A stretch of 64,000 nucleotides of DNA, taken from positions 1-64,000 of the forward strand of contig JAILPS010000012.1 in assembly GCA_024699325.1 (NCBI GenBank), given 5' to 3'. A program made the translations under genes and the position numbers. Numbering within the stretch: position 1 is the first letter of the stretch; each line of letters begins with the position of its first letter. The stretch is from Lachnospiraceae bacterium (GTDB lineage: Bacteria > Bacillota > Clostridia > Lachnospirales > Lachnospiraceae). Positions 11,555 to 35,014 of this stretch are shown piece after piece. Below the pieces are notes generated by a model. The model was not told the DNA's origin and did not search any database. It saw only the letters and a list, made by a program, of their open reading frames with translations.

Positions 11555-11641
11555 GCACAAGTTGGGAAATTAAGGGATTAAAAAACTGTGGGAAATGTGG
11601 GAAATTACGAAATGCAAAGTTTCTTCCAAACTTTACAAAAA

Positions 11642-11990
11642 ATGAGGCAGAGCTATAAGCCGGGTTATGTCATCTTGCGATGTGATGATCATCTATCTAG
11701 ACCGCATGTTGCCACACGGCTCAAGCGACTTACCTGAGACCTGACGGGCCGCCAATAGTCTCTATTAGTCTTGCTTCGGATGGGGTTTACATGTGCCCCG
11801 CATGTTACCATGCGGGCGGTAGTCTCTTACACTGCCCTTCCACCCTTACCACTTGCGTGGCGGTATATTTCTGTTGCACTGGCCTTGGAGTTACCTCCAC
11901 CGGACGTTATCCGGCATCCTGCCCTATGAAGCCCGGACTTTCCTCACCTGCCTAAGCAGCCGCGACCATCTGCTCTACCTTCATTACAGC
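11642..11990 (-). ncRNA. rnpB: RNase P RNA, bacterial
   Basis: Minus strand GTAGAGCAGATGGTCGCGGC...GGTGAGGAAAGTCCGGGCTTCATAGGGCAGG...GCCAGTGCAACAGAAA...ATACCGCC...GGTAAGGGTGGAA...ATAACCCGGCTTATAGCTC: conserved RNase P core motifs. Confidence 0.93.
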
Positions 11991-24149: not shown

Positions 24150-25136
24150 TCACTGGTAGTTAGGTGTTCCATTTAACTGAAGAATTGCGTAGTTGCCCTT
24201 ATCGGCACCGACCCAGATTACAACACATATATGTCCGTCGCTTAGATACCAGTCAAGCTCGTGCTGCAGATCGTCTGTAAACACAGGATCGTACACATAT
24301 GCCTTCGCAAGGCCCTCATTGTCATAGGTCTCAAACACCTTGTCCTCGCCCCTGATAACCGTGTAGTTGCCCTCTGCGATATCGTTGTAGGCCTTCATGA
24401 CACCGTACATAGTCTCAAGATTCAAAACCGTACCCGTCATTCTGTCCACTGTGAAGTAGTATCTGTACTCCCTCTCCTTCTCGTACCTCAAATCGCCCTT
24501 GTCATGCATGACGGTTCCGGCGAATTCAAATGATACGAACCTTGTCTCATTGAGAGTTGTGCACTTTAAATTAACCCACAGATCCCACATCTGAAATCTC
24601 TCGACATACTTATTCAGACAGTATGGCTCGATAAGCTTGTTAATCTTGTCCGTGGCCGCCTCGTCCCAGCACAGTATGCCGGGGTAATCCTCGATGCAGT
24701 ACTCCACATTGATAGGATTGCCCTCTTCGTCAACCCAGATGTCGTCGTGTGGAGAGTACACCAGCATATAGTCGGTCCACACGCCGTTCTCGTCGATTGG
24801 CATGACCTTGGACAGTCTTCTGTCGATTGCCAAATCTATGTACTCTATGGTCTCATTTTCGTTGTCGTTGCCAAAATGTGAGCTGGTCGGCGTGTCAATA
24901 TCGATTACGATATCTAAACCTTCAGTGGTCTCCACAGTCTCTGTCTCAGGCGCCCCGGTAGTCTCTGCTGCCTGTGCCTCCTCTGTGGTGGACTCAGACT
25001 CTGAAGCGCTGGTGGTTTCTACGGTACTGTTTGGCTGCGCCGTGGTTGGATTAACGTCAACCTGCTCGTAGAGAGCGCATCCGCCAAGCATGGAAACCGT
25101 CAGAGCCATGGACATAATTCTATAAATCTTTCTCAT
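24150..25136 (-). CDS. Putative lipoprotein with Thr/Glu/Ser-rich linker
   Basis: 328 aa; lipobox-like SMLGGCALYEQ; linker TTSASESESTTEEAQAAETTGAPETETVETTE. Confidence 0.7.
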   Translation of the reverse strand: MRKIYRIMSMALTVSMLGGCALYEQVDVNPTTAQPNSTVETTSASESESTTEEAQAAETTGAPETETVETTEGLDIVIDIDTPTSSHFGNDNENETIEYIDLAIDRRLSKVMPIDENGVWTDYMLVYSPHDDIWVDEEGNPINVEYCIEDYPGILCWDEAATDKINKLIEPYCLNKYVERFQMWDLWVNLKCTTLNETRFVSFEFAGTVMHDKGDLRYEKEREYRYYFTVDRMTGTVLNLETMYGVMKAYNDIAEGNYTVIRGEDKVFETYDNEGLAKAYVYDPVFTDDLQHELDWYLSDGHICVVIWVGADKGNYAILQLNGTPNYQ

Positions 25137-25144
25137 AAAAACTC

Positions 25145-26284
25145 CTAAACTAATTCCTTGATCTTCTTAACCAGCACCTTGGCAGCCTCCTCGTGGTTCT
25201 TAGGACCCGGGTGAGCTCTGCTTCCAACTGTCTCATCATTAGTTTCAGGAAGTCTCACATAGTAGACCTCATAATCCTCTGAAGCAGCCTTATATTCGTC
25301 GATTGCCTTCACAATCGGCTCCTCCATAAATGTTCCGAGCATTCCGTATGCCCAGAGTATCTTTGAATTAGGGTTGTGATATCTAAGCTCTGCCAAAAAC
25401 AGCTTGCATTTGTCGATGAATTTTCTCACATCCTCCTCGACAAATGTTCCATCCTCGTTAAGCCTCTGTTTAGTAATGCGCCCTGACACAGGGTCCACGT
25501 ACTCGGGGCTGTTAAACGCTCCACCGTCGTTGGTTCCGAGATTTACAACTATCACATCTGCGGACCATTTAGAAAAATCATACGGCTTATCGGACCCCAT
25601 CTTATGATTGTTATCGCCCCACACCACACCACATAACTTCGAATAGTGGTCAGGAATGCTGCAGTCAGGGTTATTGTCCCAGCCTGTCAGAACTCCCCAG
25701 CCGCTCTGGCTCACAATATGGTAATCCGCATCTAACATATCAGCAGTGATGGTCGCATATTCGTGCACGGAATCGAAAAACATGCTTATCCAGTCCCACT
25801 CGTCGTGCGCCCCGATAACGCCCTCGCCGCTTGTGATGCTGTCTCCTATAAACTCAAGCTTGAGCTTCTTCTCAGGAAGCGGCACGAATTCGCCGTCCGT
25901 AAGTATGCTCCAGATCTTCAGGCCGTGCTCGTCGTCACTGCTCATCGCCTGCACATCCTTAAACAGTCTGATGGTCTTCTCGTTCTCCTTCGTCATATTT
26001 CTGATGACAGGTATGAAGTACCTTCCCTTGGGGAGCATGGTTCTGGAGTTAAACGCCCCGTCAACCGTGGTGCTGACCCAGGGCTCGTAGATATTGTAGG
26101 AGCTCTCCACCTCTATCCACACCTCGCCCGCCTTCACGCGAAACTCTATTCCGCTGGCTGTCCAGAACAGATTCAGAGGATATACATCCCCCGAATATCT
26201 TCCGTAAACTCTAAGGTTTTCTATATCTTTAAGCTCGTATCTGACCAGATTCTCATTGGTTATGGTGATTTCATTATCAAACAT
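25145..26284 (-). CDS. SGNH/GDSL-family esterase (CE2-like carbohydrate esterase)
   Basis: 379 aa; LEFIGDSITSGEGV, VVNLGTND, late SRAHPGPKNHEEAAK; N-terminal beta-rich domain. Confidence 0.8.
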   Translation of the reverse strand: MFDNEITITNENLVRYELKDIENLRVYGRYSGDVYPLNLFWTASGIEFRVKAGEVWIEVESSYNIYEPWVSTTVDGAFNSRTMLPKGRYFIPVIRNMTKENEKTIRLFKDVQAMSSDDEHGLKIWSILTDGEFVPLPEKKLKLEFIGDSITSGEGVIGAHDEWDWISMFFDSVHEYATITADMLDADYHIVSQSGWGVLTGWDNNPDCSIPDHYSKLCGVVWGDNNHKMGSDKPYDFSKWSADVIVVNLGTNDGGAFNSPEYVDPVSGRITKQRLNEDGTFVEEDVRKFIDKCKLFLAELRYHNPNSKILWAYGMLGTFMEEPIVKAIDEYKAASEDYEVYYVRLPETNDETVGSRAHPGPKNHEEAAKVLVKKIKELV

Positions 26285-26317: not shown

Positions 26318-27016
26318 CTAATCTTGGCTTCTATGCAAGTCACTGTTTATATCATATTTGATAAAAATTCTGTCCATCTTGCGCCTCATCGGACCTATCA
26401 GCACGAAGAGGAATATGCAGTTGCTGACCATATATATAACCATGGTCGGAAGCGCTCCAGTCACATAAAACATAAATCTCTCTATGTTAAATGTGTTCTC
26501 CATCCACATGGTTGTCCATATGTCCATGACCAGGGAATACAGGCACCCCGTAATCATGCCGTATATAAGAAGCACCGCCTTACTGTTCATCAGCCTTCTG
26601 CCAAGCAGCCCCGCGCCAAAACCTACCAGTCCCCAGCTAAGCATTTGAAATGCTGTCCAGGGGCCCTGCCCGAAGTAGAAGTTTGACAAAACAGCCGTCA
26701 GACTTCCACACATAAAACCGTAAACCGGCCCCATGTACATTCCGCAGATTATGGTTATCGCGGTGACAGGCTTGAAGCTTGGAAGGGGCGCAAATACAAA
26801 CCTTCCCACAGTGTTTAGCGCAATCAAAACCGCAAGTATAACATTTTTCGTTGTGTCATTCTTCCTCTCAAAGCTTAAGAAAAACGGCACGATGCACAGA
26901 GCGCTGACCGCTATGCACACATACGACCAGGAGCTGTCGTCAAACACAAATGCTCCGGCGAGCACCAGCACTGTGATAAGCCCCAGCCATATTACAATCT
27001 TAATCTTAGTTTTCAT
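26318..27016 (-). CDS. ECF transporter substrate-binding (S) component, predicted corrinoid-specific from context
   Basis: 232 aa, about 6 TM helices; VTAITIICGMYMGPVYGFMCGSLTAVLSNFYFGQGPWTAFQMLSWGLVGFGAGLLGRRL is typical of ECF S components; adjacent to EcfA/EcfT. Confidence 0.85.
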   Translation of the reverse strand: MKTKIKIVIWLGLITVLVLAGAFVFDDSSWSYVCIAVSALCIVPFFLSFERKNDTTKNVILAVLIALNTVGRFVFAPLPSFKPVTAITIICGMYMGPVYGFMCGSLTAVLSNFYFGQGPWTAFQMLSWGLVGFGAGLLGRRLMNSKAVLLIYGMITGCLYSLVMDIWTTMWMENTFNIERFMFYVTGALPTMVIYMVSNCIFLFVLIGPMRRKMDRIFIKYDINSDLHRSQD

Positions 27017-28590
27017 GAATAGGCCTTAATAATTTCGTCGACACTTACGGCATCGACATCCCCCGCGATAAGTCTCGCAGGTGTTGTGTAATAGTTATTC
27101 TCCCTGAAGAATCTGTGCGTTTTTTCAGGCTCAGTTATGCCTCCGTCAAAAAACATGTAGGCTTTGTCCGAGGCCATCTGGGCAAACACTGTGTCGTGTG
27201 TGACAAACAGAATGCATCTGCCCTCCTCCTTAAGCCTCTTAAATATGTCAGCTATAACCTTCTTCATGCCCATGTCAAGTCCCTGTGTGGGCTCGTCAAA
27301 CAGCATGATCTTAGCATTTGACATAAACATTTTGCCCATGGCTGCAAGCGCCCTCTGGCCTCCGCTAAGGTCGTAGGGATGCCTGTCAAGAAGCTCCTCT
27401 ATGCCAAGTTTTCGTGAAATATCAGCTATGACAGCGCTGTCTAACCCCATGTATTCGACATAGCTCTCATAGTCAGCTCTAACGCTGTCCTTAAGAAACG
27501 CAAGCTTCGTGTCCTGTGGAAGATACGCCACGCTGCCCTGCGCACTGACCCTGCCCCTCTGCGGCTTGTTTATGCCACACAGAGTTTTTATAAATGTGCT
27601 CTTGCCGCTTCCGTTGCCGCCAAGCACCGCGAGAGTCTCGCCCGCATTTAGGCTTATGGAGGCACCCCTTACGATAAAGGGAGACTTCCTCTCATAGGCG
27701 TAATATATATCCTTCGCTTTAAGGACCTCCTCGCCGCTAGCCTCATCAGAAGTCTCTCTTAGCACATCCCTGTGCGGTTTTCCTTCGAGATATTTCTTGG
27801 CGCTTAGGACTGTGAACTGCCCATCCCAACCCTCTATGCCAAATCTGTCAACCAGCTTAGCCACAGCAGGAAATGCCTCAAATATCCTCTCATTCTTAAC
27901 CGTGCCAATCGCGTTAGCAGGTTCTCCGTCATAAAAAACTCTGCCATTCTTTAATACTATCAGCCTCGAGGCGTAGCTTAGGCAAAACTCCAGGGCGTGC
28001 TCAACCATAACCACGGTTATTCCAAGCTCAGAATTAAGTCTTCTAAGCATTCCCATAAGCCTGTCAGCGCTCACGGGGTCGAGACTTCCCATGGGCTCAT
28101 CAAGCAGTATGACTCTAGGCCTCATGGTCAAAACAGAGGCCAGGCTGAGTATCTGCTTCTGACCGCCTGAGAGCTTGTCAGTTGGCGAGTTTAGCCACTC
28201 ATCCATGCCAAAATAAGAGCTTATCTCGGAGATTCTCCTCCTTATGCTCCCGCTGTCGAGGTTTAGGTTTTCAGGGCCAAAAGCCAGCTCCTGATAGACT
28301 CTGTCCGTCACAATGGACAGCTCATAGTCCTGCCCCATATAGCCGATCGACAGAGAGTTTTCAGAGGTGAGTTTTTCTCCGGCAAACCACACTTCACCCT
28401 CAGTCTTACCTGCGGGCGAGATCTCTGGCTTTAGGAGTTTTAGAAGCGTTGATTTGCCGCTTCCGCTCTCCCCGCAGACAACCACAAACTCCCCCTCGTT
28501 GATATTAATATTTACATCTGTAAGAGCCCTCGTAAAGCCGTTAATGTTCGGATACGAGAAGCTCAGATTCCTGATCTGTAATATTTCCAT
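27013..28590 (-). CDS. ECF transporter ATPase with two fused ABC domains (A-A')
   Basis: 525 aa; two Walker A (GESGSGKSTLL, GGNGSGKSTFI) and two signatures (LSGGQKQ, LSGGQRA). Confidence 0.95.
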   Translation of the reverse strand: MEILQIRNLSFSYPNINGFTRALTDVNININEGEFVVVCGESGSGKSTLLKLLKPEISPAGKTEGEVWFAGEKLTSENSLSIGYMGQDYELSIVTDRVYQELAFGPENLNLDSGSIRRRISEISSYFGMDEWLNSPTDKLSGGQKQILSLASVLTMRPRVILLDEPMGSLDPVSADRLMGMLRRLNSELGITVVMVEHALEFCLSYASRLIVLKNGRVFYDGEPANAIGTVKNERIFEAFPAVAKLVDRFGIEGWDGQFTVLSAKKYLEGKPHRDVLRETSDEASGEEVLKAKDIYYAYERKSPFIVRGASISLNAGETLAVLGGNGSGKSTFIKTLCGINKPQRGRVSAQGSVAYLPQDTKLAFLKDSVRADYESYVEYMGLDSAVIADISRKLGIEELLDRHPYDLSGGQRALAAMGKMFMSNAKIMLFDEPTQGLDMGMKKVIADIFKRLKEEGRCILFVTHDTVFAQMASDKAYMFFDGGITEPEKTHRFFRENNYYTTPARLIAGDVDAVSVDEIIKAYS

Positions 28591-29429
28591 AGTATACTAT
28601 CCCTAATCTCCACAGCCGTCGGAATTAAAACCAGGACGCTGTAGAGTATGAAGCCTAAATATGTTCTGTCCGTTATATTAATCCAGACCTTCGGATATAT
28701 GGCAAAGCCAAAATCTCCCACGGCGTACATCCAGATTGTCGCCCCTGAGAGAATGACCACCGCTGTTAAAACCGCCGCATCAGAAGCGCCAAAGCGGAAT
28801 CTGTTGTAGAAGGAGCGCCTTCCCCTGCCATAGCCCCTGGCCTTCATGGAATGGCTAAGCTCAATCCCCTGCTCAAAACTCCAGCCCATAATCGCCGAGA
28901 AGCGGTTAAGCATGTCCTTAAGTCTTGTGCGCCCGTTTGCGCTGTCAACCATGGCAAGATCTCTAGACCTCACCCTGATAAGCTTGATAAGCCTGAGCGC
29001 CACGCTGATCACAACGCTTATATTTCCAAATGCTCTGCCAAATATGTAAGATATCTTCTCAAAATCAAAACCGTCCGAAAACACAGCACACCACACAAGC
29101 ACCGCGCTAAGCATTATGCCCGAGCTCACCCCGTAGTAGACAGATTCTAAAGTCACCGCCATAGAATTCATATAAAACAGAGGTGTGACGCCGTTGTGTG
29201 AAAACAGAGGGTTCGTAAGCGCCATGAGAACTATTACCGCACCACAAAACAGCGCAGTTTTAATGACTCTTCCCCTGTCAAATATAGTTGTGATATAAAC
29301 AAATGCGCTTATAAGGCTTATAAGCTCAAGAACTATATTTCTAAAAAACATTCCGGACACTATAACACACAGAAAATAAATTAGACTCACCACGGGATGC
29401 ATGTCAAAAAATGCATATTTTCTGTTCAT
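28563..29429 (-). CDS. ECF transporter transmembrane (T) component
   Basis: 288 aa; IELSHSMKARGYGRGRRSFY matches the EcfT coupling motif; multiple TM helices. Confidence 0.9.
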   Translation of the reverse strand: MNRKYAFFDMHPVVSLIYFLCVIVSGMFFRNIVLELISLISAFVYITTIFDRGRVIKTALFCGAVIVLMALTNPLFSHNGVTPLFYMNSMAVTLESVYYGVSSGIMLSAVLVWCAVFSDGFDFEKISYIFGRAFGNISVVISVALRLIKLIRVRSRDLAMVDSANGRTRLKDMLNRFSAIMGWSFEQGIELSHSMKARGYGRGRRSFYNRFRFGASDAAVLTAVVILSGATIWMYAVGDFGFAIYPKVWINITDRTYLGFILYSVLVLIPTAVEIRDSILWKYYRSGI

Positions 29430-29990
29430 TTAGTCCCCCATATTGTAGTACTGGTCGCCTAAATCCCTGCCCAAATCGCAGGTGTAGCGCCATTCCACCT
29501 CGTCGCCGTCCTCTAAAATATAATCTCCGCAGGCATCCCTTGGAAATATTCCGTTCACCTTATACATCCAGCCGGATATGGGCCCGCAGTCATATTCGTA
29601 CAGATATCCAATCCCCTGCACATATGTGCTTCCGTTATATTCTATGGCGATATCGTTGACGCGGCACACATACTCCAAGAGGTCGTAGACGGATTTGCCC
29701 TTCTCGATCACCACTGTTGTCTTATCAAGAAGCACACCGTCATCCCTCAAAACGCCCGCATTTTTGACGCCGTCGCTTAGGTTTTCGTAATTATCAAAAA
29801 CCGTGGAGTAGTTTATAAGAATGCTCACGCTAATTCCGTCAGTCACGCTCTCTAATGCCTCATTAGAAGCATTTGACGCGTGCTCATCCACAGTCTCAAA
29901 ATCCGTGTTAATTATCAATACCACTATCGCCGCCACCGCCAGTATGGCAATCAGGCAGGCGATAATTCTACTCTTCTTCAACTTTCCCAT
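29430..29990 (-). CDS. DUF4430-type (transcobalamin beta-domain-like) membrane-anchored protein
   Basis: 186 aa; N-terminal TM; VYDLLEYVCRVNDIAIEYNGSTYVQGIGYLYEYDCGPISGWMYKVNGIFPRDACGDYILEDGDEVEWRYTCDLG. Confidence 0.82.
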   Translation of the reverse strand: MGKLKKSRIIACLIAILAVAAIVVLIINTDFETVDEHASNASNEALESVTDGISVSILINYSTVFDNYENLSDGVKNAGVLRDDGVLLDKTTVVIEKGKSVYDLLEYVCRVNDIAIEYNGSTYVQGIGYLYEYDCGPISGWMYKVNGIFPRDACGDYILEDGDEVEWRYTCDLGRDLGDQYYNMGD

Positions 29991-31299
29991 GCTTTTTCAT
30001 ATATACCATTGCCGTTATGCCAAGAATAACGACAGCAAAAACAATATAATAGACCAGATTGCCATTTCCCGCGCTCTCCTCTCCCTCGACGCTTTGGAGC
30101 TGTTCAGTGTTTTCCTCGTAAACAAGCTCAGTCTCTGCAGAGGCCTCAGACTGCACATTCTCTTGTCCATTAGGCACAGTCACAAAAACCTCAGAACTAT
30201 CAGGCTCTGTCTCGTCAGTATCAGCCAGACCGCCATCGTATTTTTCGAAGTTGTAAATGCTTCCCTGGCCATTTAGATATCTGTAATAGGCCATCACCGC
30301 AATCGCTGACTGTATGGTCGCCAGCTCGTTGCTCTTCACACTCTCAGTTATTGCATGCGCAAAACCGCCGTCCTCCATTCTGAAGGATAGGAGGGCATCT
30401 AAAACGCTCACGCCGTTTTTAATAAATCTCTCATCAAATCCCGCGTCCACTCCGACGCAGCTAAGCGCAATAACCACCTGGGCGCAGCTCTCTGCGTTCT
30501 CATATCCGCAGTTCATATAATAGCCTGTGTCCCTCTGCGCTTCAGACAGCCAGCTGATACATCTGTCTACACATGCCTTCACGCGCTCATCGTCCATATG
30601 CGCTGAGAGCGCCGTGACCGTCATGGCCGTGATATCCACGTCAGCCGCACCGCCCATGAGGGCAAAACCGCCGTCTACAAGCTCCATGCCAAGTATGGCA
30701 TCCAACAGCTTATCTATGTAATCGCTGTGGTCATCCCCCACATAATCATCATAGGCATCCATGCTTATAAGAGCGTAGTCAAGTCCGTTTATAAGCATAT
30801 CCTCTACAGCCATGAATTTGTCGTGTTCAAATGTGGCATCGGCGATTAAGTTAATGCTGTTGCCCTCAGCGTCCACGCCCACATGCGTGACATCACCGCC
30901 AAGGGACATTACCGCCAGGCTCATCCTCTCCCACTCTGTGGGGTTTGAGGTGCCAAGCCTTCCCGAGCTGTACCACTTATTCATATATGTGCCAAGCGCA
31001 TCTATATAGCCGTCGCCGCTTTTTCCAAGCCTTCCTGCTATGAAAGCATACCAGTCAGTGTTGGCGCTGCTACCCGCATTTACACAGAACTCCTCACTGC
31101 TCATATAGTCGCCGCCGCACTGTGCGCACTTGTATTCGTACACGCCCTCAACTATCTCGTAGAGTGTGGCCGCACTAATTTCCTGTGCGCTTATCCTCTG
31201 TGGCAGTACAATCGCCAGGGACAGCGCCAAAACAATCGATAATAATCTCTTCATCTTCATATACAACAAGGGGAGGATGTTTAATCCTCCCCGAAGCAT
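29968..31299 (-). CDS. Prenyltransferase/terpenoid-cyclase-like alpha/alpha-toroid surface protein with C-terminal TM anchor
   Basis: 443 aa ORF (probable start MKRLLSIVLALSLAIVLPQRISA near 31254); repeated toroid motifs (GYENAESCAQVVIALSCVGVD, RMEDGGFAHAITESVKSNELATIQSAIAVMAYYRYL); C-terminal NLVYYIVFAVVILGITAMVYMKKHGK. Confidence 0.82.
   Translation of the reverse strand: MLRGGLNILPLLYMKMKRLLSIVLALSLAIVLPQRISAQEISAATLYEIVEGVYEYKCAQCGGDYMSSEEFCVNAGSSANTDWYAFIAGRLGKSGDGYIDALGTYMNKWYSSGRLGTSNPTEWERMSLAVMSLGGDVTHVGVDAEGNSINLIADATFEHDKFMAVEDMLINGLDYALISMDAYDDYVGDDHSDYIDKLLDAILGMELVDGGFALMGGAADVDITAMTVTALSAHMDDERVKACVDRCISWLSEAQRDTGYYMNCGYENAESCAQVVIALSCVGVDAGFDERFIKNGVSVLDALLSFRMEDGGFAHAITESVKSNELATIQSAIAVMAYYRYLNGQGSIYNFEKYDGGLADTDETEPDSSEVFVTVPNGQENVQSEASAETELVYEENTEQLQSVEGEESAGNGNLVYYIVFAVVILGITAMVYMKKHGKVEEE
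31270..31292 (-). promoter_or_regulatory. Intra-operon hairpin between the DUF4430 gene and the toroid gene
   Basis: ggggaggatgtttaatcctcccc perfect 8-bp stem; only a weak T tract follows on the minus strand. Confidence 0.6.
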
Positions 31300-31311
31300 T
31301 TATTAAGCCTC

Positions 31312-32223
31312 TTAATTCTTTTTCTTCTTGCTCTTAGAACCTGTGATTGCAAGAAAAACGATTGCCACAAGAGCAATAGCGCCCACGATAATGAACGGAA
31401 CAAGATTAGTTGTATCACCTGTCACAGATGATGCCGTGGAAGTGATAGTATAGTAAGACTTAAGTCCGCCGTTGGTTGTAAGCGTGAAGCTCACATCGCT
31501 GCTTAAGTCAATCTTATCGCTAAGGCCTTCAACCTTCACATAGTTGGAATTAACACCGCTGACATATGATACCGCAACATCAGAGCCTGATGCATCTGTT
31601 GAGATGACGAATGGATCAGCCTCTGTGCCTGTTCCTGTCATGGCAGCCTTGTCAGCGCCAACATAGTAAGAAGTGATACCTGCGCCGCTTGCACTGTCGT
31701 ATACAGTCTCCTTGCTAAATGTGGTTGTTGTGTCTGCGATTGTGATGCTTGTAAGAATTGGATTGCCGTAGTATGACGCTCCGATATCTGCGCCGCCGTC
31801 CACAGTGTAATCGAATCTGATGACATCGCCGTCTGATAAAACACCGTCTGCATTAGCGCCGAGGTAACTGATACCCCAGTTAGAATATGCATCGCCGTTG
31901 TAGCTCATCATCCAGCCGCCCGGATAAGCGCCTGTAAGACCGTTAATCTCTGTGACATACTTGTCAGCAACACCTGTAATAGAGATGCTCTGAGCGTTAA
32001 ATGCTGCGGTAATAGCCTCAGCATCTGTGCTTCCAGCGGCAACCTCTACAGTGTAGCTCATGATCTTGCCGTCAGAGGATGCGCCTGACACACCTGCATC
32101 ACCAGCTGTGTAATCGTATGCCTCAACTGTGACACTTATAGTGTCATCGGCTACTGCCGTCATAGGCGCCATAAGCCCCATGACCATACCTGCAACGCAG
32201 GCATATGTTGTAAACTTCTTCAT
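31312..32223 (-). CDS. Secreted, C-terminally membrane-anchored protein with DUF4430-like domain
   Basis: ORF 31312..32286, probable start at 32223 (MKKFTTYACVAGMVMGLMAPMTAVADD signal peptide); VTEINGLTGAYPGGWMMSYNGDAYSNWGISYLGANADGVLSDGDVIRFDYTVDGG; C-terminal LVPFIIVGAIALVAIVFLAITGSKSKKKKN. Confidence 0.82.
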   Translation of the reverse strand: MKKFTTYACVAGMVMGLMAPMTAVADDTISVTVEAYDYTAGDAGVSGASSDGKIMSYTVEVAAGSTDAEAITAAFNAQSISITGVADKYVTEINGLTGAYPGGWMMSYNGDAYSNWGISYLGANADGVLSDGDVIRFDYTVDGGADIGASYYGNPILTSITIADTTTTFSKETVYDSASGAGITSYYVGADKAAMTGTGTEADPFVISTDASGSDVAVSYVSGVNSNYVKVEGLSDKIDLSSDVSFTLTTNGGLKSYYTITSTASSVTGDTTNLVPFIIVGAIALVAIVFLAITGSKSKKKKN

Positions 32224-32284
32224 TTCAATTCTCCTTTCTCTCATGCCACTTGTGTGGCAATCTTGCCCAGAAATGAATCTTCTC

Positions 32285-32435
32285 ATAGCGGCAGGTCTCC
32301 TGACTTCGATTTGCGAACCCCTCCTTCTCAGTTTCCCAATGGCTTAGCGGTTCAACTCTGACACAGTAATGGCTGTTGCTCCGGATTCTGACCGGATTCC
32401 CTTTTCACCCGGGCTTCCCCGGACACCGTTATGAC
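32285..32435 (-). promoter_or_regulatory. Cobalamin riboswitch
   Basis: Minus strand ACGGTGTCCGGGGAAGCCCGGGTGAAAAGGGAATCCGGTCAGAATCCGGAGCAACAGCCATTACTGTGTCAG...GAAGTCAGGAGACCTGCCGC: B12-box and cobalamin aptamer core, upstream of the operon. Confidence 0.92.
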
Positions 32436-32464
32436 ATATCTGTATTTTACAGATACTAACGCGA

Positions 32465-32493
32465 ATTATATACGGTTTTATTTAACAAGTCAA
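32465..32493 (-). promoter_or_regulatory. Sigma-A-type promoter of the B12 operon
   Basis: Minus strand TTGACT-17 nt-TATAAT upstream of the riboswitch. Confidence 0.75.
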
Positions 32494-34268: not shown

Positions 34269-35014
34269 GGGGGCTGTAAAAAACAGCCTTAAAAACCTAA
34301 GAGCTCTGCCTCAAAAGAGGTGGAGCTCTACATTTTTGTGTCGTTATTATTTTTGATGCAGCTATTTTGCTCATGATATTTATGCTGCGCTTGATAGCCT
34401 ATGCCGTTTATTGTGGTATTTATAAAGATTAAAACCACACGAAATCAGCGTCAGCTCTAAAATTACGGCTTTTTTGCCTCTGCCAAACAACCTTTTGTAA
34501 GAACGGTCCCATTTTATGACACTTGTTTCCGCGAACATGACGATCATATTTGTATATGAACCTCTTGCCGTTTGGACAGATAAGATCACCGTTTTCATCT
34601 CGCTTGAAGTTCGTTATACGATATGGGTTTGTACGGTATTTCTCGTCTTTTGTCTCTTTTTCAAACATGGTAAACTTCATGAACTTTTCTATACCGTGTT
34701 CTTCACAATAGAGATAATTATTATACGATCCATAACCTGCATCTGCTACCGGGTATTTAGGATAATGACCATATAGTGACTTGAATTTTTCCATCAGCGG
34801 AATGAAACAATCCATGTCTGATGCATAATGCGAATGAATATACTGGGTCAGAAACGTCGATTATTTTTTCAATTTCCAGTGGCAATTTCAGCTGACGTGT
34901 TGTATAATAGCTACTGGTATTATTGGGTTTTTGCACGATATCATTATACCAAAAAATCGCTGTAAGCGCTATGCCTACAGCGATTTTTCTTTATGGACTT
35001 TTTTTACAGCCCCC
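34269..35014 (-). mobile_element. Internally deleted IS1182-like insertion sequence
   Basis: Terminal inverted repeats gggggctgtaaaaaa (34269) and ttttttacagccccc (ends 35014) bracket a transposase fragment; about 746 bp. Confidence 0.82.
34380..34860 (-). pseudogene. IS1182-family transposase C-terminal fragment, frameshifted
   Basis: SDMDCFIPLMEKFKSLYGHYPKYPVADAGYGSYNNYLYCEEHGIEKFMKF...ENGDLICPNGKRFIYKYDRHVRGN; the C-terminal ...LISCGFNLYKYHNKRHRL lies in a second overlapping frame. Confidence 0.8.

Follow-up and report, generated by a model that had tools for sequence, protein, structure and literature searches.

A cobalamin-riboswitch operon with candidate surface corrinoid-capture proteins and a CbrT-like ECF importer in a Lachnospiraceae bacterium

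The locus and its riboswitch

We analysed a stretch of 64,000 nucleotides (the window) from contig JAILPS010000012.1 of the genome (2.44 Mb, 98% complete) of a gut-type, Gram-positive Lachnospiraceae bacterium. Within it, six near-contiguous minus-strand genes lie downstream of a cobalamin riboswitch, in the order SLBB1, TOR, SLBB2, EcfT, EcfA-A' and EcfS. We are fairly confident that they form a corrinoid-uptake operon repressed by vitamin B12 (cobalamin), in which surface capture feeds a dedicated energy-coupling factor (ECF) importer. The features of the locus are as follows (TM, transmembrane; aa, amino acids).

32465..32493 (-): putative sigma-70-type promoter, TTGACT-17-TATAAT, matching the consensus at 11/12 bases, which is its sole basis
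32273..32445 (-): cobalamin riboswitch aptamer, RF00174, 83.8 bits, model positions 1-189/189
32223..32272 (-): putative expression platform, a GCCAC/GTGGC hairpin and then the Shine-Dalgarno sequence AAAGGAG
31312..32223 (-): SLBB1, 303 aa, with signal peptide, SLBB/DUF4430-like domain, and C-terminal TM anchor with Lys tail
29968..31299 (-): TOR, 443 aa, with signal peptide, alpha/alpha toroid (about residues 40-350) and C-terminal TM anchor
29430..29990 (-): SLBB2, 186 aa, with N-terminal TM anchor and DUF4430 (transcobalamin-C-like beta-grasp) domain
28563..29429 (-): EcfT, TM coupling component, 288 aa, with several TM segments, a KARG motif and a conserved operon position
27013..28590 (-): EcfA-EcfA' fused ATPases, 525 aa, with two Walker A/B and two LSGGQ motifs
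26318..27016 (-): EcfS, CbrT-like S component, 232 aa

An earlier note on this DNA had proposed the promoter, the riboswitch, the tight packing or overlap of the six genes, and a signal peptide and/or TM anchor on each of the three extracytoplasmic proteins, and all of these were borne out. The promoter was the best among 9 matches at a threshold of 9/12 bases, for which shuffled sequence gave a mean of 10.1. The aptamer matched RF00174 over its full length, well above the gathering score of 31.5 bits, carries the B12 box GUCAGGAGACCUGCC, and is the sole cobalamin riboswitch found genome-wide. As the folding energy of the leader RNA was not unusual (z -1.75), the riboswitch call rests on the covariance model. 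We placed the SLBB1 start at the ATG at 32223, which is preceded by AAAGGAG; the start of the longer open reading frame (ORF), at 32286, falls within the aptamer. Because no intrinsic terminator was found between the aptamer and this ATG, control is likelier to be translational than by a terminator. The intergenic gaps, from SLBB1 to EcfS in order, were +12, -23, 0, -28 and -4 bp. SLBB1, TOR and SLBB2 each bear hydrophobic N- and/or C-terminal anchors, and their SLBB and toroid parts would face outside.

The importer and its likely ligand

With a dedicated EcfT, two ATPases and an S component in one operon, the importer has the make-up of a group I ECF transporter. EcfA-A' contains two ABC_tran stretches and matched ECF_ATPase_1 at 274 bits, and EcfT gave no match above cut-off to the curated families of Pfam and NCBIfam. 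For the S component, the comparison with CbrT suggested by the earlier note identified CbrT as its nearest solved relative. Searched as a single sequence against the PDB, EcfS had 6fnp_A (CbrT) as its sole significant match (4.5e-5). When a 33-row family profile was compared with solved S components, CbrT scored 2.3e-17 and the next, 4hzu_S, which we take to be an HmpT-type S component, 1e-4; RibU and FolT gave no match to this profile at E up to 1. EcfS is therefore supported as a CbrT-like cobalamin S component. Specificity for some other vitamin, with a secondary association to the riboswitch, is highly improbable: the top Pfam name is PF07155, 'ECF-type riboflavin transporter' (45.6 bits), and the best NCBIfam match a sub-threshold one to a folate family, but these labels denote broad families and so do not test specificity, and the cobalamin riboswitch recurs beside the family.

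Cobalamin transport by CbrT has been proven experimentally for the Lactobacillus delbrueckii ECF-CbrT complex (PDB 6FNP; PMC5997447). The window operon parallels it in its CbrT-family S component and in cobalamin import, the latter predicted here from sequence. In L. delbrueckii, CbrT works with a shared ECF module of group II, whereas the window encodes a dedicated group I module and a toroid partner. The likely ligand follows from the riboswitch together with the CbrT-like S component, and it is very probable that the operon imports a corrinoid. In some relatives, EcfA, EcfA' and the S component are joined into a single chain of 818-983 aa (L036:11310-13952, L037:4269-6764, L038:3585-6479, L047:4973-7429, L048:11158-14109 and L050:12803-15337). 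Such fusions would bind the S component to the motor permanently, which is awkward for models with dissociating S components.

The host encodes MetH, a B12-dependent methionine synthase. As markers of auxotrophy we used CbiC and CobS alone, and both were absent from the host genome. Among 120 genomes of the family, CbiC was present in 4/27 that bear the operon and in 60/93 of the others (Fisher p=5e-6, phylogeny uncorrected); the operon thus goes with B12 auxotrophy. These absences also bear on whether cobalt, or a precursor or variant corrinoid (cobinamide, pseudo-cobamides), is taken up instead of cobalamin itself. CbrT transports cobinamide too (PMC5997447), Burroughs et al. 2007 (PMC1796856) left room for precursors, and EcfA and EcfT resemble the CbiO/CbiQ cobalt transporters. 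Free cobalt or cobinamide would, however, be of little use to a host without CbiC and without CobS, which completes cobinamide; the S component resembles CbrT, and the Pfam and NCBIfam scans gave no match to CbiM. We regard such a substrate as unlikely.

The surface proteins and their relatives

SLBB2 is a DUF4430 protein (PF14478, 59.1 bits against a cut-off of 23.8; 6.1e-16), as are 19/19 members of its family. SLBB1 reached 20.8 bits, under the cut-off, and is a probable DUF4430 protein by way of a linking segment from a relative (G070), which matches both SLBB1 (43.9 bits) and PF14478 (45.7 bits). Animal transcobalamin, haptocorrin and intrinsic factor combine an alpha/alpha toroid with a beta-grasp domain of CATH 2.170.130.30, as found in the window proteins; the same superfamily holds the bacterial structure 3u7z (PMC13385337). 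The animal carriers are single soluble chains, whereas the window pieces come from separate genes and are membrane-anchored. A profile of short DUF4430 proteins matched 3u7z at 2.7e-30 and the C-terminal domain of human transcobalamin-1 at 2.5e-4, and the SLBB2 profile alone had no match among PDB sequences. The comparison with transcobalamin suggested by the earlier note thus supports the likeness for DUF4430 proteins of this kind.

TOR had weak Pfam matches to Prenyltrans and SQHop cyclase families. Its AlphaFold2 model (80 rows; pLDDT 83.4, core above 90) was an alpha/alpha toroid, whose PDB matches were GH105 hydrolases, drimenyl diphosphate synthase, squalene cyclases and transcobalamin, at similar TM-scores. 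With matches this generic, the fold is no proof of a part in B12 capture. The model is compatible with the transcobalamin alpha domain and is not diagnostic of it, since GH105 hydrolases and terpene cyclases resemble it at least as closely. A role as a class II terpene or squalene-type cyclase was considered, in view of the squalene-hopene cyclase profile matches and of a DxD.TA motif that aligns with the catalytic DXDD. We rejected this candidate, whose probability is negligible: the last Asp of DXDD is replaced by I, M, L, V or T in 80/80 relatives, and TOR bears a signal peptide and a C-terminal anchor.

Relatives carry the two domains on one chain in both orders, SLBB-toroid in 26 ORFs and toroid-SLBB in 10. 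In one toroid-first fusion (L053) a double transmembrane segment joins the toroid to the SLBB, as would result from linking the C-terminus of TOR to the N-terminus of SLBB2. The top 8 PDB matches of its model were all transcobalamin or haptocorrin (human transcobalamin beta domain 5no0, TMt 0.74; TM-scores from this model are not relied on), in keeping with the two-domain likeness that had been suggested. The single ORF L129:5837-9013 encodes SLBB-toroid-SLBB, a natural covalent version of the three window proteins. Giant surface ORFs of about 990-3350 aa with a toroid were also seen (L034, L036, L047, L055, L056 and L057), most with an SLBB and some with Cadherin-like domains.

The system recurs widely; its standing as a rarity was rejected, as a scan of named genomes held at least 573 relatives of SLBB2. 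The toroid recurs in 22/120 family genomes. Strong EcfS homologues in this sample had a DUF4430 gene on the same strand within 8 kb in 25/28 cases and an upstream riboswitch in 13/28, against 0/17 for weaker S-component paralogues. In a second sample, the best 80 loci among named genomes, a toroid was found in 74, EcfT in 67, EcfA-A' in 66 and EcfS in 56; 36 loci had a B12 box on the operon strand, and 0 had one on the opposite strand. Genera with related loci include Clostridium, Desulfosporosinus, Sporosarcina, Eubacterium, Emergencia and Lactonifactor. The recurrence of gene order, riboswitch and anchors across many genera is far beyond chance.

DUF4430 also occurs in a second arrangement. 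Of 88 DUF4430 matches, 24 followed a cobalamin riboswitch at a distance of at most 1.5 kb, for a chance expectation of about 0.03, and a short DUF4430 gene was directly followed by an S component in 13/13 such loci examined. The profile of these S components matched CbrT at 9e-19. The loci (L147-L159, e.g. L149:1808-2790 and L151:7870-8767) are two-gene units without an ECF motor of their own, of group II type. They resemble the nrdJ-cbrS-cbrT-pduO cluster of L. delbrueckii (PMC5997447), in which, we infer, cbrS encodes the DUF4430 protein.

This bears on the possibility that the ECF part imports cobalamin while toroid and SLBB proteins share its B12 control and do another surface job, such as wall or glycan binding, adhesion or B12-independent enzymology. 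GH105/GH76 hydrolases and cyclases match the generic toroid fold of TOR, Cadherin-like domains occur in giant surface ORFs (1300-3350 aa) among the relatives, and the next gene after EcfS is a GDSL/CE2-like esterase. Against this, SLBB proteins accompany CbrT-type S components in two independent arrangements, each controlled by cobalamin riboswitches, both fusion orders of SLBB and toroid occur, and a DUF4430 profile matches transcobalamin; such a separate job is quite unlikely. The surface proteins would probably capture corrinoid in a transcobalamin-like manner.

Function, known systems and neighbouring genes

Corrinoid capture feeding the ECF importer could proceed as follows. At low intracellular cobalamin, the riboswitch would free the ribosome site of SLBB1 and the operon would be expressed. 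SLBB1, toroid and SLBB2, anchored in the membrane, would form a split transcobalamin-like clamp, with the corrinoid held at the external face of the membrane by the toroid cavity together with one SLBB beta-grasp domain or both. From the surface proteins it would go to the CbrT-like EcfS, and toppling of this S component by the EcfT/EcfA-A' motor would release the cofactor inside, chiefly for MetH. That the toroid pairs with one particular SLBB and that the corrinoid is handed over to EcfS are guesses. More tentatively still, and with somewhat less than even confidence, we propose that SLBB1, toroid and SLBB2 assemble into a non-covalent tripartite transcobalamin, a committed receptor for B12 that is docked on the S component. 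It would be the Gram-positive counterpart, and likely evolutionary source, of intrinsic factor, and a soluble-type carrier would here load an ECF S component directly.

Several observations weigh against surface capture of B12 feeding the ECF importer. GH105 hydrolases and drimenyl diphosphate synthase outrank transcobalamin for the TOR model (rank 17, TM-score about 0.41), and the model of the L053 fusion was poor (4 rows, pLDDT 54.8). The window proteins gave no match to PF01122, the eukaryotic cobalamin-binding family, in a Pfam search at E up to 1. CbiC is present in four of the operon-bearing genomes. The host also has a FecCD-type ABC locus that could import B12; it comprises a permease, an ATPase and a binding protein without a cobalamin riboswitch (contig C21, 28956-29864), and its substrate could be iron, heme or B12, in the last case as a second importer. 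Finally, a relative of the same genus (genome G121, 97% complete) keeps riboswitch, SLBB1 and TOR at locus L146 but lacks SLBB2 along with the ECF genes there, and a search of its genome turned up no homologue of EcfS. The ECF link is therefore not obligatory, and the surface part may serve another importer as well. With the CbrT-like S component, the match of DUF4430 to transcobalamin and the structural matches of the fusion, the earlier note's reading of the locus as a Gram-positive surface B12-capture module with an ECF importer is largely supported.

The idea of surface B12 scavengers is already published. Burroughs et al. 2007 (PMC1796856) described Gram-positive proteins with SLBB and toroid domains, SLBB paralogues in pairs and operons with CbiO/CbiQ, and put forward B12 scavenging by non-synthesisers and transfer to animals; Rodionov 2009, as cited in PMC5997447, is a further precedent. 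The systems of 2007 share with the window a secreted or anchored SLBB (DUF4430), often a toroid and a second SLBB, and an ECF-type ATPase and T component. Compared with the passages of the 2007 account that we consulted, the window has three separate proteins, a riboswitch and a CbrT-like S component. A genome report lists CbrV-CbrU-CbrT by name (PMC6722938), and a proteomics table carries the RAST-type label 'Additional lipoprotein component of putative cobalamin ECF transporter' (PMC9963975). Our literature search, with most subscription journals outside its coverage, found no experimental study of these surface proteins. The system is widespread and was predicted in 2007; new here are the link to riboswitch and CbrT in quantity, the three-protein split form and the A-A'-S fusions.

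In Bacteroides, the lipoproteins BtuG, BtuH and BtuJ are likewise riboswitch-controlled and capture B12 at the surface to feed a transporter, but they have unrelated folds (DUF4465 jelly roll and others), sit in the outer membrane and work with BtuBCDF transport (PMC6143338, PMC13398666). The operon makes a strong, testable case for the 2007 prediction that the domain pair used in humans also serves Gram-positive gut bacteria in capturing B12, a prediction that further has animals acquiring their B12 carriers from such bacteria. It bears on the competition of B12-dependent Clostridia with Bacteroides and the host for B12, and the fused toroid-SLBB proteins of relatives are ready single-chain targets for binding and structure work.

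One further gene may belong to the transcript.

25145..26284 (-): GDSL/CE2-like esterase, starting 33 bp past EcfS

With so short a distance the transcript may exceed six genes, and the esterase is possibly co-transcribed with the operon; a role in the system is doubtful. It forms a pair with a lipoprotein gene directly 3' of EcfS (24150-26284, minus strand). The esterase and lipoprotein pair also comes after SLBB1-TOR at L146, where the order is riboswitch, SLBB1, TOR, a sigma-factor-like ORF and then the GDSL gene. Elsewhere in the window we noted a bacterial class A RNase P RNA (11640-11981, minus strand, 295 bits) and a short ORF (34429-34815, minus strand) that by eye resembles a transposase fragment.

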